Below, piece by piece: positions 10,697 through 39,068 of a stretch of DNA of 39,068 bases; position 1 is the first letter of the stretch, and every line of letters begins with the position of its first letter. Origin of the DNA: a virus. The notes below the pieces were generated by a model. The model was not told the origin of the DNA, did not search any database, and saw only the letters and a list, made by a program, of their open reading frames with translations. A program made the position numbers and the translations under genes. Location: IMG/VR virus record IMGVR_UViG_3300045977_000107, positions 1-39,068 of that record. One strand, written 5' to 3'.

Positions 10697-11289
10697 GATC
10701 GAGCCCTCCTGATTCCAGCGACCGCAACGACCAAGACACCTCCCAGGCTGATCAGGACCAGCGAGCTTGGTTCAGGAATGGCGACGGACACGATCGACCC
10801 CGCAATGGAGGCGTTAGGGAAAGACGGCACGCCGAGGTTGACACGGCCCGCGATCCCTTGATCCGCCGACAGGATGCTGGCGGTGAAGACAAGCTCGGGC
10901 GCTCCCGCGTCGAGATCAAGGGACAGCGGTGGAGCAAAGAGCAAGAACGCACTGCTCCGCAGTTCACCAAGATCACCTGCCAGGATCGCGGTGAAAGACA
11001 CCGAGTCCACGTCGGGCGCGGTCTCGGAGAGCGTAAGCGTAAAGGTATCGGTGACAGTGACTGGCGCTCCTGGAGCGACCTGCACATCGAAGTTGCCGAA
11101 GCTGGCGAACGTCGGCGTGTCGATCGTGCCAGGGCCGAGACCGTTGAAGACGATCGTCACACCATCTTGCGAGTAAACATTAGTGCCAGTGCTAGCAAAG
11201 ACTCCGGTGATCTGACCAGTGATCAGGGTTGCCTGCACCGCGTGGCTTGAAATGGCCAGGATGAGTGCAACATACAGATATCGCTTCAT
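10693..11289 (-). CDS. PEP-CTERM sorting-signal protein, 198 aa (late operon)
   Basis: The start at 11289 (MKRYLYVALILA) is preferred because GAGG lies 8 bases upstream; an ATG two codons earlier is too close to it. Residues 1-20 form a Sec signal peptide ending near AVQA. The body is a beta-rich secreted domain (TVTDTFTLTLSETAPDVDSVSF). The end has the tripartite PEP-CTERM signal: IPEPSS, a transmembrane stretch (LVLISLGGVLVVAVAGI) and a basic RRARS tail. In bacteria such proteins are exported, processed by exosortase and linked to surface or extracellular polymer. Finding one between TerL and portal is highly unusual. No exosortase is encoded here, so the host enzyme would be needed. It could act in surface modification, superinfection exclusion or egress (inference). 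Confidence 0.85.
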   Translation of the reverse strand: MKRYLYVALILAISSHAVQATLITGQITGVFASTGTNVYSQDGVTIVFNGLGPGTIDTPTFASFGNFDVQVAPGAPVTVTDTFTLTLSETAPDVDSVSFTAILAGDLGELRSSAFLLFAPPLSLDLDAGAPELVFTASILSADQGIAGRVNLGVPSFPNASIAGSIVSVAIPEPSSLVLISLGGVLVVAVAGIRRARS

Positions 11290-11299
11290 GGCCATTTCC

Positions 11300-12820
11300 T
11301 CACGCTGCGAACAACATCCCCGCCATCATCACCACCGTGTCCGCCAGGTCCGGAGACCGCCCGATCCGCTCGACAAGCTTATCCTTGGGCTCGCATTCCA
11401 GCTTCCGTTCGCCGTGCACATAGCGAATCGCTTGGATCTCTTCCCGCAGCTCCTCCCAGTGCCCACCGATGACATGGGGTGGAATCGTCCAGGCCGTACT
11501 GGACGGCGGTCCCTCATTGACAACACCACGATCTGACCGCATCACGATCTGAGGCAGCGATCGAGGATCACGAATCACCGCCGCTGCTGGTGTGGCGTAC
11601 TGAATCGAGGGATCGAGCCTGGTCCGCAACGACCAGGCACACCGAGTACGCCGATTCGCCATTCGGTTGCCACCGGAACCAGCGCCGAAGTGAGGATACG
11701 CATCCTCGATCCCAACGGCCGACAGATGGTGCCCGAAGTCCGGCCCACACCACCCGCCGCCGTCGTACACAATCATGTCGTGCCTGATACCCCACTCCCC
11801 GGTAAGCTGCTTGGCCCGCACCGCGGCGGCAATCAAATCCGTGCCCGTCGATACCTCGCAGTGCAGGAGCCCGAGCTTGTCCCCCACCATCCAGACCGTT
11901 CGATCACGCCCCGTGCCCTTGGCGATGTCGATCGCCAAACACCGCTCACCACCGAAGGCGTCAGACCGCTTCGCCATGTAGCAGAGATCGAGCCAGGAGA
12001 GAGGGATAAGCTGGTCGTAATCGTCATCCGGGAACTGGGCGAGAACCCGCGTTTTCCAGAATAGGGACGCCTCGCCATACGTCCGACGCGCGTTCTCGAT
12101 CCAGGATCGATTGGCCAGCCCCGTTGGCAGCCCATTAATGATTACTTCCTCATCGGTTAGATGGGCGTGCGGCGAGTCGAAGGCCGAAAGCTGAATCAGC
12201 CGATAGCCGGGCGTACCACGACGAGCCATGTCCGCGATCGTGCGGAAGTGGCCAGTCGCCCGAATGGGGTTGCCGAGCATCAGGTACGACTTGGCACCAA
12301 GCGACTCCAGCGCATCCCATATTGGTTGCTCGATGCCTGACGACTCGTCCGTGATGACCAGCAATTCGCCCCCATCCGGACGATGCCCCTGAAGGTTCTC
12401 CAGCTTCCGAGCCGCGAAGCCGATGGCGTACCACTTCGGGCCGAGGACCAACATCTGCGGATTCGCACTGCCCTCCGTGATCCGGCCGAAGAGCTTGATC
12501 CGGCTCGTCTTCTTACCGTACTTGATGCCACCCCAGAGGGCGTTCACGAGCTGAGCGTTGCTCGATGATGTCGTGACCACCATCGAGTTCTTACGGGTAT
12601 AGAGCCACCCTTTGACGATGCTCGGAGCGAACCAGGTCTTGCCCATCGCGTTGGCCGTGGGCACGACTGTGTACTTATTCTCGACGACGGAGCGAGCGAT
12701 CTCCTCCTGCTTCGCCCAGAGCTTGGGACGGCCCAGAACCGCCTCATGGAAGAGCGCCAGATCACTCCGACACTCATCCAGGAGCCTCGCCAGTCGCCTG
12801 TCCCTCTTACTTCGCACCAT
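11300..12820 (-). CDS. terL: Terminase large subunit, 506 aa
   Basis: ATP-driven DNA packaging motor and nuclease. The start is ATG 12820 (MVRSKRDRR); a TTG one codon earlier is less likely. N-terminal ATPase: Walker A-like PTANAMGKT (54-62, with Ala/Met in place of the usual loop residues) and Walker B LLVITDES (153-160, D158-E159). C-terminal RNase H-like nuclease: first acidic residue D298 (CLAIDIAKG), second D353 (IVYDGGG), and D491/D494 near the end (DLADTVV). All catalytic positions appear intact. Preceded by TerS and an acidic mini-gene; followed by the PEP-CTERM gene after 10 bases. Confidence 0.93.
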   Translation of the reverse strand: MVRSKRDRRLARLLDECRSDLALFHEAVLGRPKLWAKQEEIARSVVENKYTVVPTANAMGKTWFAPSIVKGWLYTRKNSMVVTTSSSNAQLVNALWGGIKYGKKTSRIKLFGRITEGSANPQMLVLGPKWYAIGFAARKLENLQGHRPDGGELLVITDESSGIEQPIWDALESLGAKSYLMLGNPIRATGHFRTIADMARRGTPGYRLIQLSAFDSPHAHLTDEEVIINGLPTGLANRSWIENARRTYGEASLFWKTRVLAQFPDDDYDQLIPLSWLDLCYMAKRSDAFGGERCLAIDIAKGTGRDRTVWMVGDKLGLLHCEVSTGTDLIAAAVRAKQLTGEWGIRHDMIVYDGGGWCGPDFGHHLSAVGIEDAYPHFGAGSGGNRMANRRTRCAWSLRTRLDPSIQYATPAAAVIRDPRSLPQIVMRSDRGVVNEGPPSSTAWTIPPHVIGGHWEELREEIQAIRYVHGERKLECEPKDKLVERIGRSPDLADTVVMMAGMLFAA

Positions 12821-15687: not shown

Positions 15688-16833
15688 ATGGGACGTCGCC
15701 GAGGGGTGTGGTACAGGGCCGAGCGAGACGCCTGGTTTACGACCTGGCAGGGTCGTCAGATTCGGCTCGCCACCGGGAAGGCGTCCAGGAGGGCCGCAGA
15801 GCGACTCTGGCACGAGATGGAGCTTTCTACCACCCGAGCAGCCAGGATCGAATCTAGGGCCATTTCCGTGGCTGACGTGGCCAACCTGCGGGTTGCATGG
15901 CTGCGAAGGCACCGGGCGCCATCGACATCACGCAATGATGAATGGTACTTATCTTGGGCGGGTGGAGCATTGGGCCAGTACCCTGCCGCCGAGCTGGAGC
16001 CGCACCAGGTGGAAGCGTGGCTGAGTCGGCGGGAGACGTGGTCGGCTCAGACGCGCCGGAACGCGGCGGTATGCCTGAAGGCGGCGTTGGGGTGGGCCGT
16101 GAAGGCGGGACACATCCCGAGCCACCAACTGGCCCGGCTCGAACTGCCGGCTCCCCAGCGGCGGAAGCACCATGTCACCGCGGCGCGGTTCGCCGAGGTG
16201 GAGCCGTACATCCGGTCGGAGCCGTTCCGGCTGTTCTGCCGGCTGATGCTGGCGACGGGTGCTCGGCCTGGGGAGCTGATGCGGCTTGAAGCCGCCCACC
16301 TCGATCATGGGCGGATGGTGGGGACGTTGCCGGGTAAGACGACTCGGGCCACGGGGCGGGAAATTGTGGTGCGATTCCCGGCCGTGGAGTGGCCACCCAT
16401 TGCACAGCTTGCCGTCGAACATCCGCGAGGCCCGCTGCTGCGGATGGGGTGTGGCCGGCCGTGGACTCGGTCCAACCTCAACAACCAGATCCGGGCAGTG
16501 CGGAAGCGAGCCATGAAGGCGGGTGTGGATCTGACGTGGCTGACGATTTATGGGATGCGGCATGGGTTCGCCACGGAGAAGCTAGCGCGTGGGGTGCCGT
16601 TGCCGGTGGTATCGGCGTTGCTCAATCATGCGTCGAGTGATACGACGGCTCGGGTGTACGACCACGTACGGCACGAGGACGCGGCTCTGCGAATGGCTCT
16701 GGACGGAACGTCAGGAGCTGGGGGATTGCCGGCGGCTTCGAGCGATGCTCGATCACGCCGGGGGGTTGGTAGGCACGGCGTTCGAGGAAGTCGCGGATTG
16801 AGGAAGGGTCGACGGACCAGGTCGGGCGCTTAA
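15688..16833 (+). CDS. int: Tyrosine recombinase integrase, 381 aa
   Basis: Catalyses attP x attB recombination at a host tRNA-Arg. The first ~50 residues are basic (arm-binding-like), followed by a SAM-like core-binding domain (about 60-150) and the catalytic domain (165-335). Catalytic set: R193 (GARPGELMRL), K217 (GKTTRATG), R291 and H292 in YGMRHGFAT, H314 (LLNHASSDTT), Y324 (ARVYDH). The first box-II residue is Tyr288 rather than the common His, a tolerated variant. Residues 341-381 are basic, low-complexity and lie over the excisionase-like gene on the other strand, with a 212-bp convergent overlap. They are probably dispensable. It starts seven bases after the right arm repeats. Confidence 0.95.
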   Translation: MGRRRGVWYRAERDAWFTTWQGRQIRLATGKASRRAAERLWHEMELSTTRAARIESRAISVADVANLRVAWLRRHRAPSTSRNDEWYLSWAGGALGQYPAAELEPHQVEAWLSRRETWSAQTRRNAAVCLKAALGWAVKAGHIPSHQLARLELPAPQRRKHHVTAARFAEVEPYIRSEPFRLFCRLMLATGARPGELMRLEAAHLDHGRMVGTLPGKTTRATGREIVVRFPAVEWPPIAQLAVEHPRGPLLRMGCGRPWTRSNLNNQIRAVRKRAMKAGVDLTWLTIYGMRHGFATEKLARGVPLPVVSALLNHASSDTTARVYDHVRHEDAALRMALDGTSGAGGLPAASSDARSRRGVGRHGVRGSRGLRKGRRTRSGA

Positions 16834-17411: not shown

Positions 17412-17756
17412 TTAGGCGTGATCACTTAAAGACTCGTTATTCGCGTCGAGCCATGCCTGACAGATGGTGTGGAGGTCGTCTTCGTGGATGATGAGCAGGG
17501 CACCATGCTTTCCCTTCTCGCGGATGATGACGATGGGGGTTTGGCGGGTCTTGTCGGCTTTGGCTTTGGTGGCGCGCCAGAGGGTGCGGGCGGCGCAGCG
17601 GGCGCGGAGTTTGGATTCGATGAAGAGTTGATCATGGGTGGAGTCGGACTCGGAGCGGTCGTCACGGCCGGCTGAACCGGAGAGGACGTTGCGGCGGGCT
17701 CCGAAGATGGAAGCATTCTTACGTTCGCATGCTTTCCAGGTGTTACGGTGGGTCAT
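17412..17756 (-). CDS. PDDEXK-like nuclease / Holliday-junction resolvase-type protein, 114 aa
   Basis: ATG 17756 overlaps the upstream stop as TGATG and is preferred to one nine codons earlier. Motifs fit the small phage PDDEXK group: an N-terminal basic helix (WKACERKNASIFGARR), then D38-S-T-H41 leading to FIESK (E47-x-K49), and a strand-turn-strand TPIVIIREKGKHGALLIIHEDDL. In this family the acidic residue plus E-x-K coordinate metal and cut branched or damaged DNA. It lies with RecT-like, helicase and initiator genes, which supports a role in resolving replication or recombination intermediates. Confidence 0.68.
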   Translation of the reverse strand: MTHRNTWKACERKNASIFGARRNVLSGSAGRDDRSESDSTHDQLFIESKLRARCAARTLWRATKAKADKTRQTPIVIIREKGKHGALLIIHEDDLHTICQAWLDANNESLSDHA

Positions 17757-18241
17757 CAGAAAGGGATCTCTTGTGGTGTCCATACTTCGAATCGTGTAAC
17801 CGGCTGAGGTGATTCGGGTGTGGCTTGCTTGGCTTTGGCGTTTCTCATGGCTTCCAGTCTAGCAAGAGCTGGATTGTGTGCTCCTTCGCGATGAGTTGGC
17901 CGCACGCCGTAGTCCAATGGCCGCAATCTCCACATACCCTCATCCGCGAGGTCGTATAGTCGCCGCAGGATGATGGTGTTCTTGTCTTCGACGTGCGAGC
18001 CCTTGATGCACCTGCCCATCACGCAGCGATGGCAGATGCAGGAGAACGCGGTCGCCGCGAGTCTGGCGTCATCGGGCCGCACGTCCGCGTACCACCGCTG
18101 CGTCAGGCCCGTGCCCGAACACTCTGGGCAATCCCACGACTTGCCCTTGGCGAGCTTCCAATCGATCCCACCCGCCTTCTCATCCCGCGGCGGGGAATCC
18201 AAACAGGCATCGCTTTCGTCGCAGTAGGCGTTTCCGCTCAC
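17756..18241 (-). CDS. Zinc-binding early protein, 161 aa
   Basis: Central motifs WDCPECSGTGLTQRW and FSCICHRCVMGRCIKG give two CxxC pairs and additional Cys, a DnaJ-like or zinc-ribbon arrangement (residues about 37-80). The C-terminus ends with a WTPQEIPF tail. Overlaps the replication initiator gene by four bases and the next gene by one. Such zinc proteins often follow replication initiators in temperate phages, possibly as helicase-loading or DNA-binding partners; not proven here. Confidence 0.65.
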   Translation of the reverse strand: MSGNAYCDESDACLDSPPRDEKAGGIDWKLAKGKSWDCPECSGTGLTQRWYADVRPDDARLAATAFSCICHRCVMGRCIKGSHVEDKNTIILRRLYDLADEGMWRLRPLDYGVRPTHREGAHNPALARLEAMRNAKAKQATPESPQPVTRFEVWTPQEIPF

Positions 18242-19236
18242 GTTCGCCGCTCCCGAGGTCCGAACTGGAACGCGGCGACTTCCGCCAGGAAGGCTTTGAT
18301 CTCCTCGGGCGTGCGTTTCTCACGCCTGGGCTTGGGCGGCTCACCGTGGGGTCGGCCATTCGTGGCCGGCGGCGGGCGTCGGCTGACGTTCTGGACGAAC
18401 CGCAGGAACCGCCTGAGCGTCGGCGGCCCCTTCTCGTCGGTCGCCAGCTCGTCGAGAGCGATCCGCCAGTGCCGGCGGTCGGGAATCTCCTCCCACCAGG
18501 CCGCGAGCGCCCCGTTCCGTCCCCACGCCTCCCGGAGCTCCCGCGGGAAGGGCGCCGTGGTCGAGGTCCAGATCGCCGATGCTCGCTCGACCAGGGCTTG
18601 ATATTCCGGCGGTCCGGGAATGATCGAATTTGGGGGGTCGGGGGTGGTGGTCTTGTTTTCCTCCCTGCACCCTCCTTTCAAATCACCACCCCCCACATTT
18701 TCTAAACCATTCAATACAGTCTTAGGACTAGGTATAGGTCTAGGTATAGATATAGGAGGCGCACACTTGAATCCCTCTTGATTTACGACTTGATTTTGAC
18801 TTGATTTCTTGATTTCGGTTTTGGGCTCGATTTTGGGCTTCCGTCCGGCCCCCTTTCGGAAGCCTCCGTGCCCGCCGTTATGCCGGAAAAAAGTACGGAT
18901 GATCAGGTGCCCGGAATCGTCGAGATAGACCCACGATCCGGAGCCGGTCCGCTGGGTCACGGCCTGGAGGATCTCGATGTTGGCGACGAGTCGTTCCCTG
19001 GTGGTCTGGCAGAGGCCCGCGATGTGCTTCAGGCTGTCCTTGAACCGGAGCGAGGGCGTCCCCTCGATCGGCTCGGCCCGCCGCTCCTGGAATCGTTCCT
19101 TGGCCACGATGATCAGAGCCGTCCAGATGCCCCACGCCTCCCACCCGCCCTCCGAGTTGACCAGCTCCGAGAAGTCCTCATCCCGCATGACCGTGATCTC
19201 AAAGCACGCCTTCGGAATCCTCTGAACACGGTTCAT
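18238..19236 (-). CDS. Replication initiator / replisome-organiser-like protein, 332 aa
   Basis: ATG 19236 (MNRVQRIPKACFE) has AGGAGGGG seven bases upstream and is the clear start. Residues 1-115 form a winged-helix DNA-binding domain (DSLKHIAGLCQTTRERLVANIEIL recognition region). A Lys/Gly-rich hinge (GGFRKGAGRKPKIEPKTEIKK) and a Pro-Ile/Arg linker follow. The C-terminal helical domain (RELREAWGRNGALAAWWEEIPDRRHWRIAL) resembles the helicase-loader-contact part of phage O/DnaD-type initiators. The linker DNA contains two iteron sets (18723-18815), as in lambda O, so the gene probably carries its own origin. Confidence 0.72.
   Translation of the reverse strand: MNRVQRIPKACFEITVMRDEDFSELVNSEGGWEAWGIWTALIIVAKERFQERRAEPIEGTPSLRFKDSLKHIAGLCQTTRERLVANIEILQAVTQRTGSGSWVYLDDSGHLIIRTFFRHNGGHGGFRKGAGRKPKIEPKTEIKKSSQNQVVNQEGFKCAPPISIPRPIPSPKTVLNGLENVGGGDLKGGCREENKTTTPDPPNSIIPGPPEYQALVERASAIWTSTTAPFPRELREAWGRNGALAAWWEEIPDRRHWRIALDELATDEKGPPTLRRFLRFVQNVSRRPPPATNGRPHGEPPKPRREKRTPEEIKAFLAEVAAFQFGPRERRT
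18723..18815. other. Putative phage replication origin with two iteron arrays
   Basis: Within the initiator gene, six head-to-tail hexamers TAGGNN (18723-18758; the fifth is TAGATA) are followed by four copies of CTTGATTT (starting 18777, 18789, 18800 and 18808). Flanking sequence is AT-rich (TTTTGGGCTCGATTTTGGG) in an otherwise GC-rich genome. This resembles the lambda origin inside gene O: initiator-binding iterons next to an easily melted AT region. The hexamers encode the Pro-Ile/Ser/Arg linker of the protein. Confidence 0.62.
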
Positions 19237-19250
19237 CGTGCCCCTCCTAA

Positions 19251-19817
19251 TCACGTCCTGAGTGCCGCAATCAGAGCCTTCAGCCGCTCACCCTGGAAAT
19301 GCCGCAGGATCACGGCCGCGGCCTTCGCGGGATCGTCCGTGCGAATCTGAGCCATCGGCTTCACGATGCCTGCCTCGATCGCCGCCGCTCGCACCGAGGG
19401 ATACCCGCCCGCCTCCAGCTTCCGTGAGATCGCGGGATGGTCCCGTGCGAGACGAGCGGTGAGGTAGGTGGATGTCTCACCCCTCACAATTAAGGTTCGC
19501 TCCGAACCTTTTTCTTCCCCCTTCCGTGGTCGGCCCTGCTTTCCCAGCACAGCACCGATGGTGGTGCCCTTCCTGGCCGCTCGCACGGCCGCGATGGCGT
19601 CGGGATCGATCTTGGTTTCCTTGACCAGCAGCAGGTCGAGCGAGGGATAGCCCAGCAGCTTCCAGGCGGAATACTTCTCAATGCTGTTGATAAGACCTTG
19701 CAGTAGAGAGATATCGCGATTGACATCCTCGACTGACAATCGAGTCTGTAAAATAATAGCTTTCGCCCACGGGAGTGTTCCCGGCTCGGCGTCACGATCG
19801 CCGATGTCATCCAGCAT
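19251..19817 (-). CDS. Hypothetical early protein with N-terminal helical and C-terminal basic domain, 188 aa
   Basis: ATG 19817 (MLDDIGDRDAEPG) overlaps the helicase stop by 11 bases. The first 85 residues are helical (VNRDISLLQGLINSIEKYSAWKLLGYPSLDLLLV). The C-terminal part (TSTYLTARLARDHPAISRKLEAGGYPSVRAAAIEAGIV) looks like a small DNA-associated domain; similar two-part proteins of unknown function occur in mobile elements. It is followed by the replication initiator with a 14-base gap, so a replication or copy-control role is plausible but unproven. Confidence 0.62.
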   Translation of the reverse strand: MLDDIGDRDAEPGTLPWAKAIILQTRLSVEDVNRDISLLQGLINSIEKYSAWKLLGYPSLDLLLVKETKIDPDAIAAVRAARKGTTIGAVLGKQGRPRKGEEKGSERTLIVRGETSTYLTARLARDHPAISRKLEAGGYPSVRAAAIEAGIVKPMAQIRTDDPAKAAAVILRHFQGERLKALIAALRT

Positions 19818-21417
19818 GGAGGAACGCGAGCTGACGCCACGCATTTTCCAGTTCCTCCGTATCCATCTCGGTGATGCTTTTGCCTGTCTTCATCATCAAT
19901 TGACTTTGAGTCGTGCCGAACTCTTTCATTCTGGATGCGTCCATAGCACGACAGCGATCCGCGATCTGATTTCGCATTCGCTGCTGCTTCTCCTGCTCAC
20001 TGTAAAAAGGCGCGTCTGGAATGGGTGGGCGAGTAATCTTATCAATAACCTTTTGCAAATCAGGATCGCTCAGATTGATGCCATAGCGTGCCAGGATCTC
20101 CAGCATTTTGTTGACATCTTCATTGCCGGCCAGAGTATCTAGAGCGCCATGTCGGACGAGATCCGTCAGACTGCTGAGTGCCAGAATAGGAAGTCGTCCA
20201 CCCTCGCCACCTGTTCCGCCAGTCGTCTTATTTCCATATCCCACGAGTGAGGGTGTTTCTTCCCGGATCTTGTCGATGATGTATCGCATCTGATAATCAT
20301 CCGGCACGAAAGCCCAACATTGCCTCTTGCCCTTCATGGCTCGCCAGGCCCGGCCGAACATCTGCTCGATCCAGGGAATGGAACGAATCAGTGTGAGGCA
20401 GAGAATGTGCGTGATCTCGGGCTTATCGAGCCCTTCGTACGCCATCTGACAGGTCACAATGGCATCGAGGCTATTGCTTGATCGAAAACGCTTGACTTGC
20501 TCATGGGCCTCATCGTTATCGGTGATCGCCAGAGCCGCAGTGATTCCTACGGATGCCAATCTCTTGTGATAAAGCCTCGCCGATTTCTGTGAATCGGCAA
20601 CGATCAGCAGTTTTCGCCCATGTCTTTTCCAATGCGTAATACACTGATCAAACAATTGATCCGCGATCTCCGTTTGCAGTGCCACGAAGATCTTGTCCGT
20701 ATCGTGCTCATCCTGGAGTGAAAGCCGTGCTTCTTGCTCCTTGCCAACGGCATCAATCCATCGCACAGGGCCGTCATGATGATAGAACTCGATGGGAACG
20801 ATAGCACCTTCATCCAATGCCGTCTGACGATCATATCGGATGAAATGATCACATGATGTCTCGGGTGATACTTTGTATCCGCTTCCCGTACCTAGATAGT
20901 CGAGTCCATGGATGAGCATGCCGGGATCATTGAGCTCCAACGTCCCCGTCATGTCGAGCCAGATGTCGGACTTGACATCCCTCAATCGAGACACCGATTG
21001 AGCAAGCCGCCGCATCTCGCCCTTCCGGGTTTCTTTGACATGATGAGATTCATCGATCACAACGATGTAAGGCTCTCGTCGCAGCTCATGTTCCCATAGT
21101 GCCGTGTTCTCCATGAGTCCTTGGTGTGTCGTGACGAATCCCCGCGTTCCGCGTCTGGGATTGACATCGTTCCCACTCTCACGCACGAGAATCTCGAAGT
21201 TTTCGAACAGACTCTGTGCTGCCTGTTTGGCCAGTGATAATCTCGGGACGAACCAGCCAATCTTGTGAGTCGGGAAACGCTGAGCGATGATGCCAGGCAA
21301 CATACTCTTGCCGCCACCAGGGACAACCCATGACAGAATCCGAGTTGGAAGATCATTCCGGAACGTCTTTTCCATGAGTTCCGCCAATGTCGCCTGATGT
21401 TTTCTGTACGTTCGCAT
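19807..21417 (-). CDS. SF2 DEAD/DEAH-type helicase, 536 aa
   Basis: Motifs in order: Walker A VVPGGGKSM (G36-K37-S38), motif II IDESHH (122-126), motif III MTGT (156-159), and motif VI QMFGRAWRA (352-360). These match the phage/restriction-type SF2 helicase family (UvsW/type III-like). The C-terminal 150 residues are helical and family-specific. It starts directly after the HNH stop (TAAATG). With the RecT-like, HNH and PDDEXK genes around it, it probably drives strand separation or branch migration in phage replication and recombination. Confidence 0.88.
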   Translation of the reverse strand: MRTYRKHQATLAELMEKTFRNDLPTRILSWVVPGGGKSMLPGIIAQRFPTHKIGWFVPRLSLAKQAAQSLFENFEILVRESGNDVNPRRGTRGFVTTHQGLMENTALWEHELRREPYIVVIDESHHVKETRKGEMRRLAQSVSRLRDVKSDIWLDMTGTLELNDPGMLIHGLDYLGTGSGYKVSPETSCDHFIRYDRQTALDEGAIVPIEFYHHDGPVRWIDAVGKEQEARLSLQDEHDTDKIFVALQTEIADQLFDQCITHWKRHGRKLLIVADSQKSARLYHKRLASVGITAALAITDNDEAHEQVKRFRSSNSLDAIVTCQMAYEGLDKPEITHILCLTLIRSIPWIEQMFGRAWRAMKGKRQCWAFVPDDYQMRYIIDKIREETPSLVGYGNKTTGGTGGEGGRLPILALSSLTDLVRHGALDTLAGNEDVNKMLEILARYGINLSDPDLQKVIDKITRPPIPDAPFYSEQEKQQRMRNQIADRCRAMDASRMKEFGTTQSQLMMKTGKSITEMDTEELENAWRQLAFLHAG

Positions 21418-21624
21418 TTAGATCCGATTGCCTTTCTTGAGGTTGCACGCAGAGCAAAGTGCCTGCATTTCGTGAACGTTGGTCCGACCTGAAACAGACC
21501 ACGGAACCTTGTGGTCCGCATGCCAATCCTCACCGAGAGGATTACCACACAAGGGACACTTCCCATTTGCTTCCATCCATAAAGCAGCTCGCAGTTTCTT
21601 CGATGTAAGTCTGCGATTGTCCAT
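21418..21624 (-). CDS. HNH endonuclease, 68 aa
   Basis: ATG 21624 has GAAGG eight bases upstream. A GTG at 21684 would start inside a predicted RNA hairpin and is rejected. The domain is complete and minimal: zinc Cys pair CPLCG (23-27), catalytic DWHADHKVPWS (D33-H38), and LCSACNLKKG (C57, C60, N61). It nicks or cuts DNA with metal. It could be a homing-type nuclease or, in this context, part of the recombination/replication set next to the helicase. Confidence 0.85.
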   Translation of the reverse strand: MDNRRLTSKKLRAALWMEANGKCPLCGNPLGEDWHADHKVPWSVSGRTNVHEMQALCSACNLKKGNRI

Positions 21625-21649
21625 AGCCGTTGCCTTCGTCAAAGGAATT

Positions 21650-21707
21650 GGCCCCGCCGCGAGCCGGTCAACCGTGACGAGCACTCCCTGGAGGCTCGGG
21701 CGGGGCC
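21650..21707 (-). other. Long intergenic RNA hairpin upstream of the HNH gene
   Basis: GGCCCCGCC (21650-21658) pairs with GGCGGGGCC (21699-21707). An inner CGAGCC/GGCTCG stem adjoins with a single bulged base, making about 15 bp with a 27-base loop. It occupies the only larger gap between the RecT-like and HNH genes. No T-run follows, so a pause/processing element, regulatory leader or small structured RNA is more likely than a simple terminator. Confidence 0.5.
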
Positions 21708-21714
21708 TAGTACG

Positions 21715-22737
21715 CTACGATTCTTGCTGGATGGCCTCGCGTTCCTCGTCCGCCTCGAATTCCGCCAGGCCGAGCCGGCCCAGCTCATCGACGCAGCACT
21801 GGTCGAAGTAACGCCGCATCTCCTCGACCAGCTCCTCGCCATTGCGATGGAAGACGATCGCGAGGTACTTTGGGATCTGGCCTTGCTTGGGCTCGCTCTT
21901 CATGTCGGCCAAGAGGCATTGCTGCTCGGCCCACTTCATCAGGTGGCCGGTCATTCGGTACCAGTCGCAGGGCTCTCGAATGCCGTCGGGAATCTCGCCA
22001 TGCTGCCGCAGAATGACTTGATCGAGGAACTGGCGATTGGCTTTCTCAAGGAACGCCTTCATCCGTTCCGTGAATTGCCTCACCTGATCAGGATTGGCAT
22101 ATTGCCCGCGACCATAGCCCGACTTGTTTTGCGGCTTCTCCGGCTTCTGCGGCTTCTCCACGAGGATCTCGGGCCGGCTCTCGATTGGCGATCTTGTATC
22201 GCAAGGCTCGAAATCAACCACCTCCTCGGGTGTGTAGAAACCGACGATCGTGCCAGGGTCCACCATCCGCACGCCGCGGCTGATCAACCGAGCCCTGAGC
22301 ATCGCCGCCCGGTTCCGTTTCCAGTTGTCCTTCTCACCATATTTGCCAGCGGTGATGCCAGACTTCTGGAATTCCTCATAGGTCGCTTCGACCTTGATTC
22401 CCTTCGGGCAATGCTGTGGATGCGAGAAGATCGCCACCGCCGCTACATCGTCGTACTGGACCCACTCAATGTGACCGCCGCGAGCCTGGAACTCGGCTTG
22501 CATGTTATCGGCACGCATCGAGGGACGGCCCTCGATGATGTGGTAGCGTTTCAAGGCCTGCATCGGGTGCAAGCCCTCGGCTTGGCATAAGAGCAACAAG
22601 GCGGTTGCCTGCTGCGGTGTAGACACGCCCGCAAACATCGCGGACCTGGCGACAATCTCTCCCATCTGCACGAGGTCTTCGAGTGTAAATCGTGCCGCGG
22701 GAGGAGCGGCTTTCATCGGAAACTGTTCACCCTGCAT
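21715..22737 (-). CDS. RecT-like single-strand annealing protein, 340 aa
   Basis: Residues 15-185 carry the pattern of RecT/Bet-like phage recombinases: LCQAEGLHPMQALKRYHIIEGRPSMRADNM, then GGHIEWVQYDDVAAVAIFSHP, and the signature RARLISRGVRMVDPGTIVGFYTPEEV. A proline/lysine linker (about 195-215) leads to a C-terminal helical region (ERMKAFLEKANRQFLDQ) that may bind DNA or a partner. It anneals complementary single strands during recombination and replication. A Gp157-like gene precedes it, a common partner order. An associated exonuclease was not found. Confidence 0.75.
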   Translation of the reverse strand: MQGEQFPMKAAPPAARFTLEDLVQMGEIVARSAMFAGVSTPQQATALLLLCQAEGLHPMQALKRYHIIEGRPSMRADNMQAEFQARGGHIEWVQYDDVAAVAIFSHPQHCPKGIKVEATYEEFQKSGITAGKYGEKDNWKRNRAAMLRARLISRGVRMVDPGTIVGFYTPEEVVDFEPCDTRSPIESRPEILVEKPQKPEKPQNKSGYGRGQYANPDQVRQFTERMKAFLEKANRQFLDQVILRQHGEIPDGIREPCDWYRMTGHLMKWAEQQCLLADMKSEPKQGQIPKYLAIVFHRNGEELVEEMRRYFDQCCVDELGRLGLAEFEADEEREAIQQES

Positions 22738-22749
22738 GTCTGCCCTCCC

Positions 22750-23313
22750 TCAACGAATGCGTAGGTGGGTACCAACGTGGACATCGAAGCCCTCGGGCAA
22801 CGAGCCTGAGCGGTAAGCCTCGATTGCTGCTTGGCCATCAAGCTCGACGCGAACGCGCTTGAGCTCGGCTGGGATGGTCTCCGGCTCGCCCGGCCAGCGA
22901 ATCGTAGGCACGGAGTTGCGTTGCACGGATAGCTTGAAACGAGGGGTGGCAATCTTGGTTCGACCCAACGCTTCCATCATGGAATGCAAGTAAGTCCTGA
23001 GCCCTGCTCCACGGTTCTCGGCCGCGCGATGCAGGGACCGCAGTCGCTCGATCTCAGCCTTGAACGCTTCGGTCTCGGCCTCGGCCTCGCGGATCAAGAC
23101 GGCAACACCTTCGGCCTTGGACTCCAGGTTGAGTTCGAGGGCGTCAAGCATTCGCTCTAGATCAATCGGAAGCTCTCCGTCCAGGTTCTCAATCTCGCGG
23201 TCAATCGCATCGAACACCGCGGGCAGCTCGTAGAGCCTAAGCACCGATGTTCTCCTCTCCGTAAATCCGGCCTCGTATTCGGCTCGGCTCTCGATCACAT
23301 GATGTTCAGGCAT
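22750..23313 (-). CDS. Siphovirus Gp157-like protein, 187 aa
   Basis: ATG 23313 (MPEHHVIES). The sequence has the Gp157 layout: an N-terminal LYELPAVFDAIDREIENLDG helix, a long coiled coil (LEMLDALELNLESKAEGVAVLIREAEAETEAFKAEIERL-like, residues 45-95), then a C-terminal unit with IATPRFKLSVQRNS, IPAELKR and a final strand. Gp157 family proteins are found beside RecT/annealing genes and have been linked to phage resistance and recombination. The next gene is RecT-like, which supports the call. Confidence 0.82.
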   Translation of the reverse strand: MPEHHVIESRAEYEAGFTERRTSVLRLYELPAVFDAIDREIENLDGELPIDLERMLDALELNLESKAEGVAVLIREAEAETEAFKAEIERLRSLHRAAENRGAGLRTYLHSMMEALGRTKIATPRFKLSVQRNSVPTIRWPGEPETIPAELKRVRVELDGQAAIEAYRSGSLPEGFDVHVGTHLRIR

Positions 23314-25026: not shown

Positions 25027-25054
25027 TTGACACACATAGAGAGGCTGCTATACT
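25027..25054 (+). promoter_or_regulatory. Strong rightward promoter of the small-gene operon
   Basis: TTGACA (25027-25032, perfect) and TATACT (25049-25054, 5/6) with a 16-base spacer, the best sigma70 match in the window. The predicted start is near 25061. It drives the run of small rightward genes ending in the PEP-CTERM gene. Confidence 0.78.
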
Positions 25055-25112
25055 ACCTTACATGACCCGAGCGATGGTGACTCGTGGGAGCAGGAGAGGA
25101 GCGGGAGCGGTG

Positions 25113-25313
25113 ATGACGACCGAACATCCAGCCAAGCCGGGAGCCAAGTTCCTTCATGCCCGTGTTATCAACCCGGACACCAAAGCCCCGGCAAGGTGTG
25201 AAGTGACAGCGGTTCGCCTCGACTGCGTCCACTACAAGCACGAGGGCGAGACACGCGGCCGGGCGTACTTTCCGATGGACCAGACACACAAGTATGTCAA
25301 GGTATGGTTGTGA
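25113..25313 (+). CDS. Small conserved-type phage protein, 66 aa
   Basis: The ATG at 25113 (MTTEHPAKPGAKF) is preceded by GGAG; an in-frame ATG at 25062 sits almost on the predicted transcription start and would give an 83-residue form. The pattern FLHARVINPDTKAPARCEVTAVRLDCVHYKHEG and the ending KYVKVWL recall short phage proteins of unknown function that form a small beta barrel. First gene of the rightward operon. Confidence 0.68.
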   Translation: MTTEHPAKPGAKFLHARVINPDTKAPARCEVTAVRLDCVHYKHEGETRGRAYFPMDQTHKYVKVWL

Positions 25314-25322
25314 CCACCACTC

Positions 25323-25562
25323 ATGAACGACCTCAACACACTCCACGCCGAGATCCTCCACCTCAAACGACAGCTCGCCACCCTTATCGACGCCTGCATC
25401 TGGGGCGAACCCTTCCTAGATGGCGAACACAAGCGCGTGCACCTCAACTGCCGCGTCGGCCTCGCCACCCGCACCCGCATGAGAAACCTCGCCGAAGCCA
25501 GAGACGCTGTACGCACCCTCGCCGGCCTCAACCACGTCTCAGGCGTTAGATCGACTGGTTGA
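25323..25562 (+). CDS. Small helical protein, 79 aa (C-terminus possibly frameshifted)
   Basis: MNDLNTLHAEILHLKRQLATLIDACIWGEPF; helical, Leu-rich start. The last residues (SGVRSTG) break the pattern, while the neighbouring frame continues plausibly (QALDRLVEEHRSKPAG) into a GAGCAAGCCCGC sequence identical to the left part of the downstream junction repeats. The native gene may have been longer and lost its end by a one-base shift. Confidence 0.55.
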   Translation: MNDLNTLHAEILHLKRQLATLIDACIWGEPFLDGEHKRVHLNCRVGLATRTRMRNLAEARDAVRTLAGLNHVSGVRSTG

Positions 25563-25708
25563 GGAGCACAGGAGCAAGCCCGCAGGGCATTGCGACCGAC
25601 GTTCAGGCTGTCATCGCCGAGCGGGATGAGGCGGTGGCTAAACTGACAGCGATCGAGGGCATACTCGAAGCCATTGTCGATGCCCGCCACGCGGGCAAGG
25701 GGGAGTGA
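25559..25708 (+). CDS. Small coiled-coil protein, about 49 aa (TTG start, possible remnant)
   Basis: The frame DVQAVIAERDEAVAKLTAIEGILEAIVDARHAGKGE is open to the TGA at 25706. It has no ATG. A TTG at 25559 overlaps the preceding stop as TTGA, which would allow coupling. It ends in the same ARHAGKGE tail as the next genes. It may be a short real gene or the 3' remnant of a longer one. Confidence 0.45.
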   Translation: MRSTGASPQGIATDVQAVIAERDEAVAKLTAIEGILEAIVDARHAGKGE

Positions 25709-25710
25709 TG
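25682..25710 (+). repeat. Gene-junction module, copy 1 (hairpin, Shine-Dalgarno, TGATG)
   Basis: GCCCGC-CAC-GCGGGC forms a perfect 6-bp stem with a 3-base loop, followed by AAGGGGGAG (Shine-Dalgarno) and TGATG, in which the stop of one gene and start of the next share a base. The stretch also encodes ARHAGKGE, the C-terminus of the upstream protein. Three similar copies follow at each later junction. Confidence 0.82.
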
Positions 25711-25905
25711 ACGGCAGAGAAGCCAACAATTGACGGCTACGATGTAACCGAGGACGGCGAGCGCTGGATTCTGTGTTGTCAGCGATGCCACAAGGCGTGG
25801 ACACTGCCGAAAGACGGTGGTGAGATGAGTGTTGGCAATAGTCTTTACCTGCTCAATCATGCCGCGAGCCACGAGCAAGCCCGCCACGCGGGCAAGGGGA
25901 AGTGA
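25708..25905 (+). CDS. Small protein with CxxC, 65 aa
   Basis: MTAEKPTIDGYDVTEDGERWIL then CCQRCHKAWTLPKD and a C-terminal LLNHAASHEQARHAGKGK. The CQRCHKAW motif with a later HAASH suggests a small zinc-binding module. Start by TGATG coupling; the final residues come from junction copy 2. Function unknown. Confidence 0.7.
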   Translation: MTAEKPTIDGYDVTEDGERWILCCQRCHKAWTLPKDGGEMSVGNSLYLLNHAASHEQARHAGKGK

Positions 25906-25907
25906 TG
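25879..25907 (+). repeat. Gene-junction module, copy 2
   Basis: Identical stem and CAC loop to copy 1, then AAGGGGAAG and TGATG. Encodes the ARHAGKGK tail of the 65-aa protein and supplies the start region of the next gene. Confidence 0.82.
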
Positions 25908-26156
25908 ACCGATACGAGACACACCGATTCGCCACCAGAGGGGCTTTACGACGATCGCAGCGAACTTTGGCGCTGCTGCACCAACATCATTAACGATCAA
26001 CAATCTAGCAACGACCTCAAGCAAATGGCGCTTGGTATTCGTCAGCAACTCCGGCTTGAGGCAGGGGTGAACGAACTGACCGAATTGTTCTATCAGGTCA
26101 GAGAAGAGCGAGACAGGCTACGCAGTCAAGCCCGCCTGGCGGGCAAGGGGGAGTGA
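25905..26156 (+). CDS. Small protein, 83 aa
   Basis: MTDTRHTDSPPEGLYDDRSELWRCC; the body is helical (NDLKQMALGIRQQLRLEAGVNELTELFYQVREERDRL) and the end is QARLAGKGE, encoded by junction copy 3. Coupled by TGATG at both ends. No known domain. Confidence 0.68.
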   Translation: MTDTRHTDSPPEGLYDDRSELWRCCTNIINDQQSSNDLKQMALGIRQQLRLEAGVNELTELFYQVREERDRLRSQARLAGKGE

Positions 26157-26158
26157 TG
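26130..26158 (+). repeat. Gene-junction module, copy 3
   Basis: GCCCGC-CTG-GCGGGC: the stem is kept and the loop differs from copies 1 and 2. AAGGGGGAG and TGATG follow. The conserved stem with a variable loop argues for selection on the RNA structure. Confidence 0.82.
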
Positions 26159-26386
26159 CGACTGCCAACCTCAGAAGTACGAAGGGCGTCAACACGCAGG
26201 GTCGTTAGTGTTGATCACGCAGTCCAAACATATCGCGTATGGCTAACGCTGGAATGCGGCCATGAAACAAGCATCACGATGACAGGAGCTAAATGGGACG
26301 CAGGCTATCGCGGTCCGCAGAAGGCTCGATGTCCGCGATGCTTTGATGAGACTGTCAAAGCCCGCCGCGCGGGCGAGGGGGAATGA
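26156..26386 (+). CDS. Small zinc-finger-like protein, 76 aa
   Basis: MRLPTSEVRRASTRRVVSVDHAV; contains LECGHETSITMTGAKWDAGYRGPQKARCPRCFDE, a Cys-x-His plus CPRC pattern consistent with a zinc knuckle or ribbon. Ends ARRAGEGE from junction copy 4. Possibly DNA- or RNA-binding; not proven. Confidence 0.68.
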   Translation: MRLPTSEVRRASTRRVVSVDHAVQTYRVWLTLECGHETSITMTGAKWDAGYRGPQKARCPRCFDETVKARRAGEGE

Positions 26387-26388
26387 TG
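26360..26388 (+). repeat. Gene-junction module, copy 4
   Basis: GCCCGC-CGC-GCGGGC, then GAGGGGGAA and TGATG. Same stem, third loop version. A decayed form can be seen at the next junction (GCCCCCCGCGAGAGCAGAGG near 26667) and another near 25577. Confidence 0.8.
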
Positions 26389-26697
26389 AACACAAATAGA
26401 TCACAAGCATGCGACAATGCCGCGTACGTTCTCAATCTTCTAGCCGGGCTGATTTTGACCGCCGCCGTGATCGTGGCCATGATCGGAATCATGCAGACAT
26501 TCCAGACAGGTTCGGCACCGCTCGTCTTCTACGCGAGTGCTGGTGCAATCCTCGTGGGTGCGTTGCCCTTCTGGCTTGGTGCTGTCTTCTTTGGTGCGAT
26601 GGCCGAGCTGCTACGCTCGAGCGATGCAACCTATCGCGTGCTCGACGGCATGCGAAGTCGCTCCACGAAGAAGCCCCCCGCGAGAGCAGAGGTATGA
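26386..26697 (+). CDS. Two-helix membrane protein, 103 aa
   Basis: MNTNRSQACDNAAYVLNLLAGLILTAAVIVAMIGIMQ followed by a second hydrophobic helix (PLVFYASAGAILVGALPFWLGAVFFGAMAELL). The C-terminus is short and basic. Expressed with the small soluble genes and followed by the PEP-CTERM gene. Superinfection exclusion, membrane association or sorting-partner roles are possible; family not recognised. Confidence 0.72.
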   Translation: MNTNRSQACDNAAYVLNLLAGLILTAAVIVAMIGIMQTFQTGSAPLVFYASAGAILVGALPFWLGAVFFGAMAELLRSSDATYRVLDGMRSRSTKKPPARAEV

Positions 26698-26867
26698 ATA
26701 CCCTGAAGTTCCGCACGCTCCGCGTTAGACCGCCCATCCACGCCTGGCTGGTCCGGCTGGCGGAACGCTGGAACCTGATGTATGGAGGCCAGCCGTCGCC
26801 AGGGAAGGCCCTCGAACAGCTCTACCGATGGCACGAGTATGGGATGCAAGACGAGAGGAAACGATGA
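26694..26867 (+). CDS. Small basic protein, 57 aa
   Basis: MNTLKFRTLRVRPPIHAWLVRLAERWNL; start overlaps the upstream stop (ATGA) and its own stop overlaps the PEP-CTERM ATG. Basic, aromatic-rich and helical (GKALEQLYRWHEYG). Probably coupled in translation to both neighbours. Function unknown. Confidence 0.66.
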   Translation: MNTLKFRTLRVRPPIHAWLVRLAERWNLMYGGQPSPGKALEQLYRWHEYGMQDERKR

Positions 26868-27442
26868 GAACCGCCGCCGCTGCCCTGATCCTGTTCGCGA
26901 CCAGCATTCCCGCCCATGCCACGTTCCTGATCGACAAGATCGATGTGAACAACCACCACTATCGGCAGGAAGCCGAGATCGCTATCACGTTCAACCAGTT
27001 GCCGGACTTCGTGACCGTTGATTCGAGAGGCCGAGCGGCGAACGCGCTCCAACTCTACTTCGTCCCCCGCGGAGGAACTAATGAGCCTTGGGAGATCCAC
27101 GTCGTCGGCCGGGTAAACGAAGGCGATATGCTCGGCTCAGTCCGATTCAGGAATGGACCGCAAGGCGCGGACTACACCGGTTCAGACCCCAATTTCCCCT
27201 CAGGCGGCTGGGGCTCAATCCGCGGCGAAGTGCCCTATCTCCTCCAGGATCGCACCTTGAGCTTTACGGCCACTTACGACATGATCGGCACACCCGACGC
27301 CTGGTGGTCGCTCAAGGCCGAGACGTTCGAGTTTGGTTCATTCCGTAGTCGCGTGGGCGTCGTCGCCCCGGAGCCTTCCAGCGCCCTCCTGCTGCTTCTT
27401 GGCGCTTTGCTCCTGGCATGGCACGCAATGCGGCGTACCTAG
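26864..27442 (+). CDS. PEP-CTERM sorting-signal protein, 192 aa (end of small-gene operon)
   Basis: Signal peptide MRTAAAALILFATSIPAHA; a mature beta-rich domain (ITFNQLPDFVTVDSRGRAANAL, FPSGGWGSIRGEVPYLLQD); then the PEP-CTERM signal: APEPSS, a hydrophobic helix (ALLLLLGALLLAWHA) and a basic end (MRRT). Like the late-operon protein at 10693 it would need the host exosortase. Its gene is expressed from the strong rightward promoter, possibly in the prophage state, suggesting surface or matrix modification of the lysogen. Its 3' end overlaps a minus-strand gene by 105 bp. Confidence 0.85.
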   Translation: MRTAAAALILFATSIPAHATFLIDKIDVNNHHYRQEAEIAITFNQLPDFVTVDSRGRAANALQLYFVPRGGTNEPWEIHVVGRVNEGDMLGSVRFRNGPQGADYTGSDPNFPSGGWGSIRGEVPYLLQDRTLSFTATYDMIGTPDAWWSLKAETFEFGSFRSRVGVVAPEPSSALLLLLGALLLAWHAMRRT

Positions 27443-28526: not shown

Positions 28527-30905
28527 TCACATCGAAGGCGGACTGAAGTTGGGCGTGCCGAAGTTGGGCACCGCGATGTTCGGCACCCCGAAGTTGGGCG
28601 CGAGATTGCGACCCAGATAGATGCCAGGCGGCACGAGGAACACGCCGCTGTCGAGCCCGAAGAGCATCTGACCCCGCTGTGGCCTCTCGTACTCCGAGGA
28701 CGTAAACGGCGTTCGGCGTGTCGAGCAGTGCAGCTCCAGCCGGTACTTGGCTCCCTGACCGTCCTGCCACCTCAGTGCCGTCTCGACCACGGGCAGCGTC
28801 GTGGATTCATACCCCACCGTGTACGCCGAGCCGGCCAGCCTCACGCCCCGGCCGGGCGTCAAGAACGTAGCGTCGAAGTACAAGAGCGAAATCGTCGCGT
28901 CGATGGTCGTATCCTTCACGGCGTCGAGCATCTCCCGAGCGTAGGCCAGCATGTTGGCCTCGTTGGCCGGATCGCGCCATTCCGGGCAGGTAATCGTGAG
29001 CGTTCTGGCCAGTCCTTCGACCGTATAGGCGGAGCCCTCGTAATTCTTCGTCGGCCCCGCGGTATCAGCCGGCAGAGTAACCGTCAGGGCTCCAGTCGCC
29101 ACCGGGAGGAAGGCCCTCACGTCGGATGGGATGCCGTCCGTCGAAGCCCCGCCAATCTCCAGATTGGCCCGTGTGCCGTAGAACGTGACCGAGGGCCGCT
29201 CCAGAAGCAGCGTGCCCGTGTCATAATTGATCGAGACACCACAAGTCGAAGTGAAGTAGGGCGGGGAGCCGTCGGAGCTCCAGAGAATCTCCACGAGGGG
29301 TGTCGACGTCATGGCCATCGCGTTGCCATTGGCGTTGGTCAATGGAGCCGGGAAGGTTGCCTTGGGTCTCAGAGCGGCTCGGCAGTCGGCATCGGTCACG
29401 AGGTAGTTCCGCCAGACTTCCGCGGCCCCGCCCGCGATACCCTTGATCGTGTAGGTGTCGTAGTCCAAGGACGGCAATTCGCGGTCCATCGTAAGCGTCG
29501 AAGTCCCCGCTGCTGCCAGGGAGGTATTCGTGGTGATCTTGCGAATGACTCGATGGTTGATTCCCGTACCCGTCTCCTCCACGAGCAGAATCACACCTTG
29601 CCGGCCCGCGGAAGTTTGGTCCCAGTAGTTCGCCGCCCATGTCTTCAAGTTGTCGGTCGGATTGACCACAACGGTCGTACTGTCCGAGACTGTGCATGAC
29701 CCCACATCCGCCGCACCATCGACGCCCTCGGGATTCTCGAAGTAGGCCAGATTCCAGTTATCTTTAGCTTGCGTGTTCGTGTACGACCCGTAGGCGAAGT
29801 TCTCGGCCAGCCCCCCATCTGAGAGCGTGAACAGCTTCATCTCGGCATAGTCGGTCCCTCGCACCACGATCCGCGTCCAGCAGTCCTTGACCGATTCGGC
29901 GAACCGGATCGCCCCCGTGTCAATGATGCTCGCCGCCTGATCCAGAGTCAGCGTGGTGAAGTTGGGGTAGCCGTCCGTGTTCGTGCCAAACTTCCGTTGG
30001 TCGTAGAACCGCAGGATGCCGTCTCGAACGTCCAACATATGGTTGGGTGCCAGAGACCGGAGCGAGCCCTCGATGGCTCCCAGGGCTTTCTCCCCCCCCA
30101 CCGTGACCGTATGGGGTGGTACATGGGTCATACGGGCCAGATCGCCAACCGTCGAGCTGGGCAGGGGCGAGACGTAGACCGTGGGCGGGGAGGTGTAGCC
30201 GCTCCCCCCATTGGTCACCGTGAAGCCCGTAATGGCCCCGCCAGACACCGCGGCCGTCGCCGTGGCTCCCGTACCACCCCCGCCCCAGAGAACGACCGTG
30301 GGGGCTGCTGTGTAGCCCACACCGGCCTCCACGACCGCAATGCCCGAGACATTGCCGGTGATGACCGTCGCCTCGCCCGAACCGCCGAAGCCGAACGAGG
30401 AATAGTCGCCGATCCCGACGCTATCGAGGTCTTCGGCCAGCGTGGGATCGTTCAGGACCGCCAGGAGGATCTGGCCCGCCGTCCGTCCGGCTCGATCCCC
30501 CCGGTAATTGAGCCAGTCGTCGGGATCGGCGTTGAAGATGTGGTTGTCGCCGCCCGTGTTCGTGTTCGTGATCGGCACCGTATCGCCCTGAGCCCGCAAG
30601 CCCTCGGCCTGGTAGGTATGACCCCAACCGAAGGCCGTCCACGACCACGAGCGAGATTCGCACTTGCCCTTGAAGATCGAGACGAAGCCCGAGCCGATGT
30701 CATACTGAAGCTCGATGGGCTTGTTCAGAAAGGGATCAGGCGTAGCCCGCGGCACGATCGCCCCGCCCATCGCATGCCAGGACAGCCGCGGCACGCCTTC
30801 CCGCGAGTACGGCACCAATTCAAGGAACTGTACCGTCGGTTTCGGCAGCGTGTACTCAACGCTGTTGACCAGGAGCTTCCAGGCGGGATCGGTGGCACTC
30901 GGCAT
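28527..30905 (-). CDS. Tail-tip/baseplate-associated protein, 792 aa
   Basis: The start overlaps the tape-measure stop by one base (TGATG). Residues 1-170 resemble a tail hub N-terminal region (FVSIFKGKCESRSWSW, YQAEGLRAQGD). Residues about 184-246 hold two glycine-rich repeats (GIAVVEAGVGYTAAPTV and GFTVTNGGSGYTSPPTV), an inserted module common in phage tip proteins. A mixed alpha/beta C-terminal section follows. The extreme C-terminus has four pentapeptides based on PNFG (residues about 767-790). Gene order after the tape measure fits a Tal/Dit-type tip protein involved in host contact. Confidence 0.75.
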   Translation of the reverse strand: MPSATDPAWKLLVNSVEYTLPKPTVQFLELVPYSREGVPRLSWHAMGGAIVPRATPDPFLNKPIELQYDIGSGFVSIFKGKCESRSWSWTAFGWGHTYQAEGLRAQGDTVPITNTNTGGDNHIFNADPDDWLNYRGDRAGRTAGQILLAVLNDPTLAEDLDSVGIGDYSSFGFGGSGEATVITGNVSGIAVVEAGVGYTAAPTVVLWGGGGTGATATAAVSGGAITGFTVTNGGSGYTSPPTVYVSPLPSSTVGDLARMTHVPPHTVTVGGEKALGAIEGSLRSLAPNHMLDVRDGILRFYDQRKFGTNTDGYPNFTTLTLDQAASIIDTGAIRFAESVKDCWTRIVVRGTDYAEMKLFTLSDGGLAENFAYGSYTNTQAKDNWNLAYFENPEGVDGAADVGSCTVSDSTTVVVNPTDNLKTWAANYWDQTSAGRQGVILLVEETGTGINHRVIRKITTNTSLAAAGTSTLTMDRELPSLDYDTYTIKGIAGGAAEVWRNYLVTDADCRAALRPKATFPAPLTNANGNAMAMTSTPLVEILWSSDGSPPYFTSTCGVSINYDTGTLLLERPSVTFYGTRANLEIGGASTDGIPSDVRAFLPVATGALTVTLPADTAGPTKNYEGSAYTVEGLARTLTITCPEWRDPANEANMLAYAREMLDAVKDTTIDATISLLYFDATFLTPGRGVRLAGSAYTVGYESTTLPVVETALRWQDGQGAKYRLELHCSTRRTPFTSSEYERPQRGQMLFGLDSGVFLVPPGIYLGRNLAPNFGVPNIAVPNFGTPNFSPPSM

Positions 30906-38620: not shown

Positions 38621-39068
38621 TTACATCCTCAGAAGTGCGTTAGCACCTCGTACGTAAATCAGGGATGCCTCCCCGCCACCGAATGAGTCCGCCACCCATT
38701 CGCGATATGGGAAGCTCTCAGCCACACGTTCCGTCTCAGAGAGGTCTCGCAAGTCAGCGCCACCGCCTGCGGTGTTATTGAGATTGAAGTCGTCTGCTCC
38801 GGCATCCTCGAACGGGTTAGCCGAGAGCGTGATCTCGTTGTCACCCAGCGAGCCGCCATTGTGTGTGCCGCTGGTGTTCGAGTAGTAGGCATTCCAGTCG
38901 ATCCGCAGGCCCCACGCCGCCTGTCCCGCAGCCGTCAAATTCGTGAGGTTGTGACCATATCCCCCATTCAGGATGAACATATTACGAAGAATCGAGAGTG
39001 AGCCAAAGTGACCGCTCGACACCGCCTGGTTGAATTCGATGCCATCGCCGCCGTTGTTGTAGAAGATG
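38621..39068 (-). CDS. Beta-helix protein, C-terminal part (joined to 1-1167)
   Basis: Continuation of the beta-helix gene that starts at 1167. In the circle the coding is 1167..1 then 38863..38621, total about 469 residues; 38864-39068 duplicates 1-205. The C-terminal part (GLRIDWNAYYSNTSGTHNGG, SANPFEDAGADDFNLNNTAGG) ends the helix with a cap (LIYVRGANALLRM). Confidence 0.85.
   Translation of the reverse strand, partial: IFYNNGGDGIEFNQAVSSGHFGSLSILRNMFILNGGYGHNLTNLTAAGQAAWGLRIDWNAYYSNTSGTHNGGSLGDNEITLSANPFEDAGADDFNLNNTAGGGADLRDLSETERVAESFPYREWVADSFGGGEASLIYVRGANALLRM
38864..39068. repeat. Terminal overlap, right copy
   Basis: Copy of bases 1-205 with one difference (T at 38941 versus C at 78; Asn versus Asp codon in the beta-helix protein). 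Indicates circular closure and a polymorphic site or sequencing difference. Confidence 0.9.

Follow-up and report, generated by a model that had tools for sequence, protein, structure and literature searches.

Short repeats that border small genes are known from lambdoid phages, where they have been proposed for homologous recombination or cassette exchange. Short conserved boundary sequences have thus been put forward for lambdoid mosaicism, an idea cited in PMC3029335. In T4-like phages, promoter-early stem-loop (PeSL) cassettes have been described (Arbiol et al. 2010; Comeau et al. 2014; as cited in PMC4503421); they are repeated regulatory stem-loop elements between small genes and are linked to gene-module shuffling. 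In cluster K mycobacteriophages, Pope et al. (2011; PMC3203893) described start-associated sequences (SAS) and ESAS. Each genome carries 11-19 copies of the 13-bp SAS, GGGATAGGAGCCC, most of them at genes that are preceded by more than 50 bp of intergenic space, and the element can contain the upstream stop codon; the ESAS is located upstream of the SAS and consists of imperfect inverted-repeat arms of 17 bp with a spacer of 4-13 bp (PMC3203893). At the time of their description in 2011, these start-associated repeats had no known function. With regard to translation, one of the standard arrangements for termination-reinitiation is an overlap of -1 nt, TGATG (PMC10666635), and genes VII and IX of phage f1 provide a precedent for a hairpin that lies shortly before a coupled start (PMC12548453).

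We analyzed a virus record of 39,068 bases, the whole of which is referred to here as the window. Its ends are identical over 205 bp (1-205 and 38864-39068), and in view of this terminal repeat it probably represents the complete circular genome of an uncultured temperate phage. An HTH repressor is encoded in the window, as is a RecT-like protein (21715-22737), for which tblastn revealed matches to annotated RecT proteins, with Pfam RecT below the cut-off. The locus described here is a block of small genes behind a promoter-like site, in which two ORFs (25113-25313 and 25323-25562) are followed by P1 to P5 and then by P6 (Table 1). The G+C content was 53-55% in the stretches between modules 1 and 4 and 58% in P5, and that of the genome was 60%. 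Elsewhere in the window, two PEP-CTERM sorting motifs, which are unusual for a virus, were found at 10705-10782 on the minus strand and 27365-27436 on the plus strand, and the genes concerned hint at a host group such as planctomycetes. The end of a tail-protein gene (28545-28599) contained 15-bp repeats encoding a PNFG-type pentapeptide repeat (PNFGVPNIAVPNFGTPNF).

Table 1. Features of the small-gene block (positions in the window).
Feature	Positions	Strand	Description	Basis or search result
Promoter	25027..25054	+	TTGACA-N16-TATACT, promoter-like site	predicted
Small-gene block	25042..26736	+	region without blastn match in the relative	limits are blastn hit limits
ORF P1	25559..25708	+	49 aa; TTG start uncertain; ends DARHAGKGE (copy 1)	ORF list; no family match
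Module copy 1	25682..25710	+	GCCCGCCACGCGGGC hairpin, AAGGGGGAG Shine-Dalgarno, TGATG stop/start overlap	exact pattern match
ORF P2	25708..25905	+	65 aa; CxxC and paired His, zinc-finger-like; ends QARHAGKGK (copy 2)	
Module copy 2	25879..25907	+	loop CAC; Shine-Dalgarno AAGGGGAAG	pattern and repeat search
ORF P3	25905..26156	+	83 aa; ends QARLAGKGE (copy 3)	no homolog found
Module copy 3	26130..26158	+	loop CTG	pattern and repeat search
ORF P4	26156..26386	+	76 aa; ECGH...CPRC, zinc-ribbon-like; ends KARRAGEGE (copy 4)	no homolog found
Module copy 4	26360..26388	+	loop CGC; Shine-Dalgarno GAGGGGGAA	pattern and repeat search
ORF P5	26386..26697	+	103 aa; hydrophobic, membrane-like; final gene in the block, without module at its end	
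ORF P6	26694..26867	+	57 aa; coupled to P5 by ATGA	

A module of 29 bases, GCCCGCNNNGCGGGC-RAGGGGRAR-TGATG, was present in exactly four copies, which occupy four consecutive gene junctions of the 39-kb genome in the same register. A pattern search with GCCCGCNNNGCGGGCRAGGGGRARTGATG revealed four exact matches, all on the plus strand, and none elsewhere in the window, where the reversed control pattern also gave no match; the same four copies were recovered by an unbiased repeat search. Outside the four copies, no site in the window matched the bare GCCCGCNNNGCGGGC with fewer than two mismatches. The first-pass annotation had reported a hairpin, a Shine-Dalgarno (SD) sequence and TGATG at the junctions 25682, 25879, 26130 and 26360, with an invariant stem and a varying loop (CAC, CAC, CTG and CGC in copies 1 to 4), and both observations were confirmed for all four copies. 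It had also placed two decayed copies near 25577 and 26667. These were indistinguishable from chance: their alignment scores of 18 and 17 equal the best score usually obtained when the array sequence is shuffled, and locally shuffled segments matched these scores with p of about 0.03 each, uncorrected for the targeted search.

The edges of the module are sharp, with little similarity upstream beyond CAA-GCCC or downstream beyond ATG, and they coincide with functional edges, namely the stem base and the ATG. Among the 24 coding columns, all five variable columns fell outside the 12 stem columns (p of about 0.02), a value of little statistical weight with only four copies; the copies are paralogous, and their likeness may merely reflect recent copying, which would also yield identity. 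A match to CRISPR-DR28 (Rfam RF01356) reached 25.1 bits against a cut-off of 35 and was rejected; the spacing of 197-251 bp between the modules is occupied by ORFs. The record is a metagenome assembly, in which cassettes could in principle have been placed in the wrong order because of the near-identical 29-bp repeats, though each frame is intact.

In every copy, the in-frame TGA of the upstream ORF shares one base with the next ATG, and stop and start thus overlap between co-directed genes at all four junctions, as in termination-reinitiation. The last third of the module combines a strong SD (RAGGGGRAR) with this one-base overlap, which would allow a ribosome ending one gene to restart on the next. 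The hairpin alone was predicted to fold at -10.4 kcal/mol and spans -26 to -12 relative to the start, a position covered by the footprint of an initiating 30S subunit. When folded in context, the hairpin showed a pair probability of 0.79-0.98 in copy 1 and of 0.98 in every context in copy 2. In copy 3, the 5' arm and loop were predicted to pair with the SD in most contexts, replacing the hairpin, and in copy 4 competing folds were predicted that partly occlude the SD as well. According to these models, the hairpin or an SD-occluding fold would dominate or compete in each copy. The 25-mers at the four junctions folded at -11.8 to -12.8, and 1.65% of random 25-mers reached -10.4 or lower. The seven other TGATG junctions of the phage gave values of 0 to -7.1; their local structure is weaker, so the hairpin is special to this block, and because they lack such a hairpin, coupling does not need it. 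Since the stem never varies, it is uninformative for or against pairing.

The coupling geometry, which comprises the strong SD, TGATG, the stem at -26 to -12 and the sharp edges, is well supported, and on balance we favor the interpretation that the module is a translation-coupling adapter common to small early genes that follow one another in a temperate phage genome. In such an adapter, the GC hairpin would fill the area needed by the 30S subunit or, alternatively, its 5' arm would mask the SD, and free initiation would be poor in either case. A ribosome finishing the upstream gene would then open the hairpin or the SD-masking fold, as in the RNA-unfolding model of coupling. From this arrangement, we infer that the genes are coupled in vivo and that the hairpin is inhibitory. 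The anatomy of the junctions fits well with the translation coupling suggested in the first-pass annotation, but the hairpin is not predicted to be dominant in copies 3 and 4 in most contexts. The genes VII and IX of phage f1 are similar in that a hairpin before the coupled start would be opened by upstream translation (PMC12548453). However, f1-type coupled pairs are single native junctions, whereas the module is copied at successive junctions. The copies would most likely have spread from junction to junction by recombination or have been retained during cassette gain.

The upstream frame through the module reads A-R-x-A-G-K/E-G-E/K-stop, giving P1 to P4 their tails. When the bodies of the five proteins concerned were compared with one another without these tails, no similarity was found, in agreement with the earlier description of a common ARHAGKGE-like C-terminal tail on four unrelated small proteins. 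Judging from sequence features, both P2 and P4 resemble small proteins that bind zinc, and P5 looks like a membrane protein. P1, whose only start is TTG, may be a 3' gene remnant. Family searches with P1-P5 gave no assignment, with no significant family for P5, and no homolog of P3, P4 or P5 was found among phage records. P2 had no match in plasmid records, and its sole, distant phage match was a protein from a 595-kb phage that was 42% identical over residues 1-57. This homolog has its own lysine-rich tail (AAKKGN), and neither a hairpin nor TGATG follows its gene, which indicates that a gene of the P2 kind can exist without the module. The first-pass annotation had named homologous small genes of related phages without module and tail as grounds for refutation; the P2 homolog lacks the module, yet it is too distant to refute the proposal.

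That the tail is common to four unrelated small proteins might suggest that the peptide ARxAGKGE is itself selected, for example as a localization or stability tag, and the basic end of the distant P2 homolog is consistent with this explanation. However, tail residues 3, 6 and 8 change (H/L/R, K/E and E/K), whereas the four-fold degenerate sites in the stem codons do not. Moreover, the KGE or KGK ending follows from the SD, and unrelated phage proteins found via the SD-TGATG pattern have the same ends. Selection on the peptide is therefore very unlikely. Because the degenerate sites are constant while loop and tail codons change the amino acid, the comparison, which covers few sites, leans towards a constraint on the nucleic acid rather than on the peptide. 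Under the coupling interpretation, the shared tail would be a by-product of an RNA element read in the upstream frame.

Upon comparison with the start-associated sequences, we found both likeness and difference. The SAS and the module are both repeated SD-containing elements placed a few bases before the starts of unrelated small non-structural genes, here in four copies, and the ESAS adds an inverted repeat immediately upstream of the SAS, as the module has a hairpin before its SD. The resemblance to mycobacteriophage start-associated sequences pointed out in the first-pass annotation is thus apt in principle, but the sequence differs, and the fusion to the upstream stop, which had been set against it, is not by itself new because the SAS can include the upstream stop. 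In particular, the module lies entirely inside the upstream coding frame, always has TGATG, occurs in only four copies in one block, and has perfect 6-bp arms and a 3-base loop, which differ from those of the ESAS. The SAS consensus was found in the window only as one site with two mismatches (chance mean 1.18), away from the array. As consensus, arm length and copy number differ, the module does not belong to SAS or ESAS. Compared with the lambdoid boundary sequences, the module additionally carries the hairpin, the SD and the stop/start overlap. With PeSL cassettes it shares the repeated stem-loop between small genes; these, however, carry a promoter and a terminator-like stem-loop and are transcriptional, whereas the module has neither and looks translational. 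A terminator or PeSL interpretation was rejected, as no promoter-like or terminator-like site and no T-run was present in any module.

The 12 invariant stem bases with their variable 3-base center also resemble a dimer site, and the SAS/ESAS of mycobacteriophages have likewise been considered possible binding sites (PMC3203893). The inverted repeat could accordingly be recognized by a phage or host protein, either as RNA by a coordinated translational repressor or as DNA in the form of an operator or stoperator. However, neither the promoter nor any other site in the genome contains the palindrome, which sets it apart from operators and stoperators, and the constant tie to the SD and TGATG in one orientation would be unneeded for a DNA site. 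No RNA-binding protein was identified in support of the RNA form, and we regard a recognition site as quite unlikely.

In a search of 2.9 million viral contigs with three patterns, no true copy of the module was found in a second genome, and one scan of 84,980 prokaryotic species genomes likewise revealed no second genome. One viral-contig match to the module pattern was a chance match on inspection, and a single hairpin-SD-TGATG junction in an unrelated viral contig was about the chance expectation for the loose pattern. Six hits in species genomes looked, on inspection, like chance matches or like inverted repeats that do not lie within an intact upstream gene, and none formed a tail-SD-start array. 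Among phage and plasmid records, there was no DNA match to the window, and a portal search gave no match. The module is so far known from one genome.

Promoterless small genes that lie in the same orientation behind one promoter, with an inverted repeat after each, would also be expected of an integron-like cassette array with attC-type sites. However, the GTTRRRY core was found at none of the four junctions and only at 25545 and 26724, and its absence from the junctions refutes this interpretation. In addition, the repeat of 15 bp with a 3-base loop is far shorter than attC, and the tyrosine recombinase of the window (15688-16833), encoded about 9 kb from the array, is a generic match to phage integrases. 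An integron is thus extremely improbable.

Relatives were sought by RecT, terminase, capsid, tail protein and pooled small proteins, and only IMGVR_UViG_3300045977_000264 was found. Its capsid and terminase were 99% and 95% identical to those of the window, respectively, and blastn revealed that the two genomes were collinear after circular permutation. No module was present in the relative, even when three mismatches were allowed. A block of about 1.65 kb was missing, with its true edges just past the promoter and at the P6 start codon at about 26696; the promoter -35 (TTGACA) was kept and led straight to a P6 homolog that was 60% identical. Since the relative lacks the block between the promoter and P6, the modules mark an insertion/deletion hot spot, and they sit in an all-or-none accessory block that was gained or lost as a whole.

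Further differences were present between the two genomes. Although most late genes were 80-89% identical in DNA, the relative has largely unrelated genes in place of window positions 17756-22750 (helicase and RecT-like protein; early replication and recombination). The PEP-CTERM gene of the relative was split by two insertions. In one, the 3' end of this gene is present in two 65-bp copies (11432-11496 and 12341-12405) that are 88% identical and flank a DNA methyltransferase-like gene, and insertion with duplicated gene ends thus occurs in this lineage; the other (10908-11301) carries an 87-aa ORF. The relative also contained long arrays of GCCNN pentanucleotides (1-1400, 2020-2120 and the contig end, 39680-39825), several of which, together with GGCAAGGCAAGGTTCTCATCAATGCTCCCA on the minus strand, recur as a unit in front of genes or between them. 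The window lacks the start motif.

The presence or absence of the whole block between relatives is consistent with the module being a recombination seam first, that is, a short shared boundary for cassette exchange by the RecT-like annealing protein, with RNA features that merely keep frames and starts intact after exchange. The RecT-like gene of the window and the methyltransferase-like gene between copied gene ends in the relative point in the same direction, and the seam suggested in the first-pass annotation is plausible to this extent. However, no module is located at the outer edges of the block, which lie directly behind the promoter and at the start of P6. The comparison of small-gene content that had been recommended as a check revealed a difference in the whole block, but one whose edges lie outside the modules, in the one relative available. 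No related phage was found in which these modules enclose other small genes, and recombination alone would not demand that the module edges match functional edges. A seam as the primary role is possible but rather unlikely. With translation coupling as the favored role, we infer that recombination would have contributed to the spread of the copies.

The module is thus a tidy variant of a known theme, which works like SAS/ESAS, to which it does not belong as tested, and like the lambdoid boundary sequences. The adapter probably allows ribosomes to continue into each next gene and further small genes to be inserted. In a broader and, in our view, unlikely form, it would be a plug-in adapter that unites in 29 bp a protein end, an insulating hairpin, a ribosome entry site, a stop/start overlap and homology for RecT-like annealing; if this were true, any small gene ending in the module could join the operon and be translated. 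These findings touch on the question of how phages gain small accessory genes while keeping operon expression intact, and a compact repeat in a block that is missing from a close relative offers a small, clean system for separating coupling from cassette exchange.
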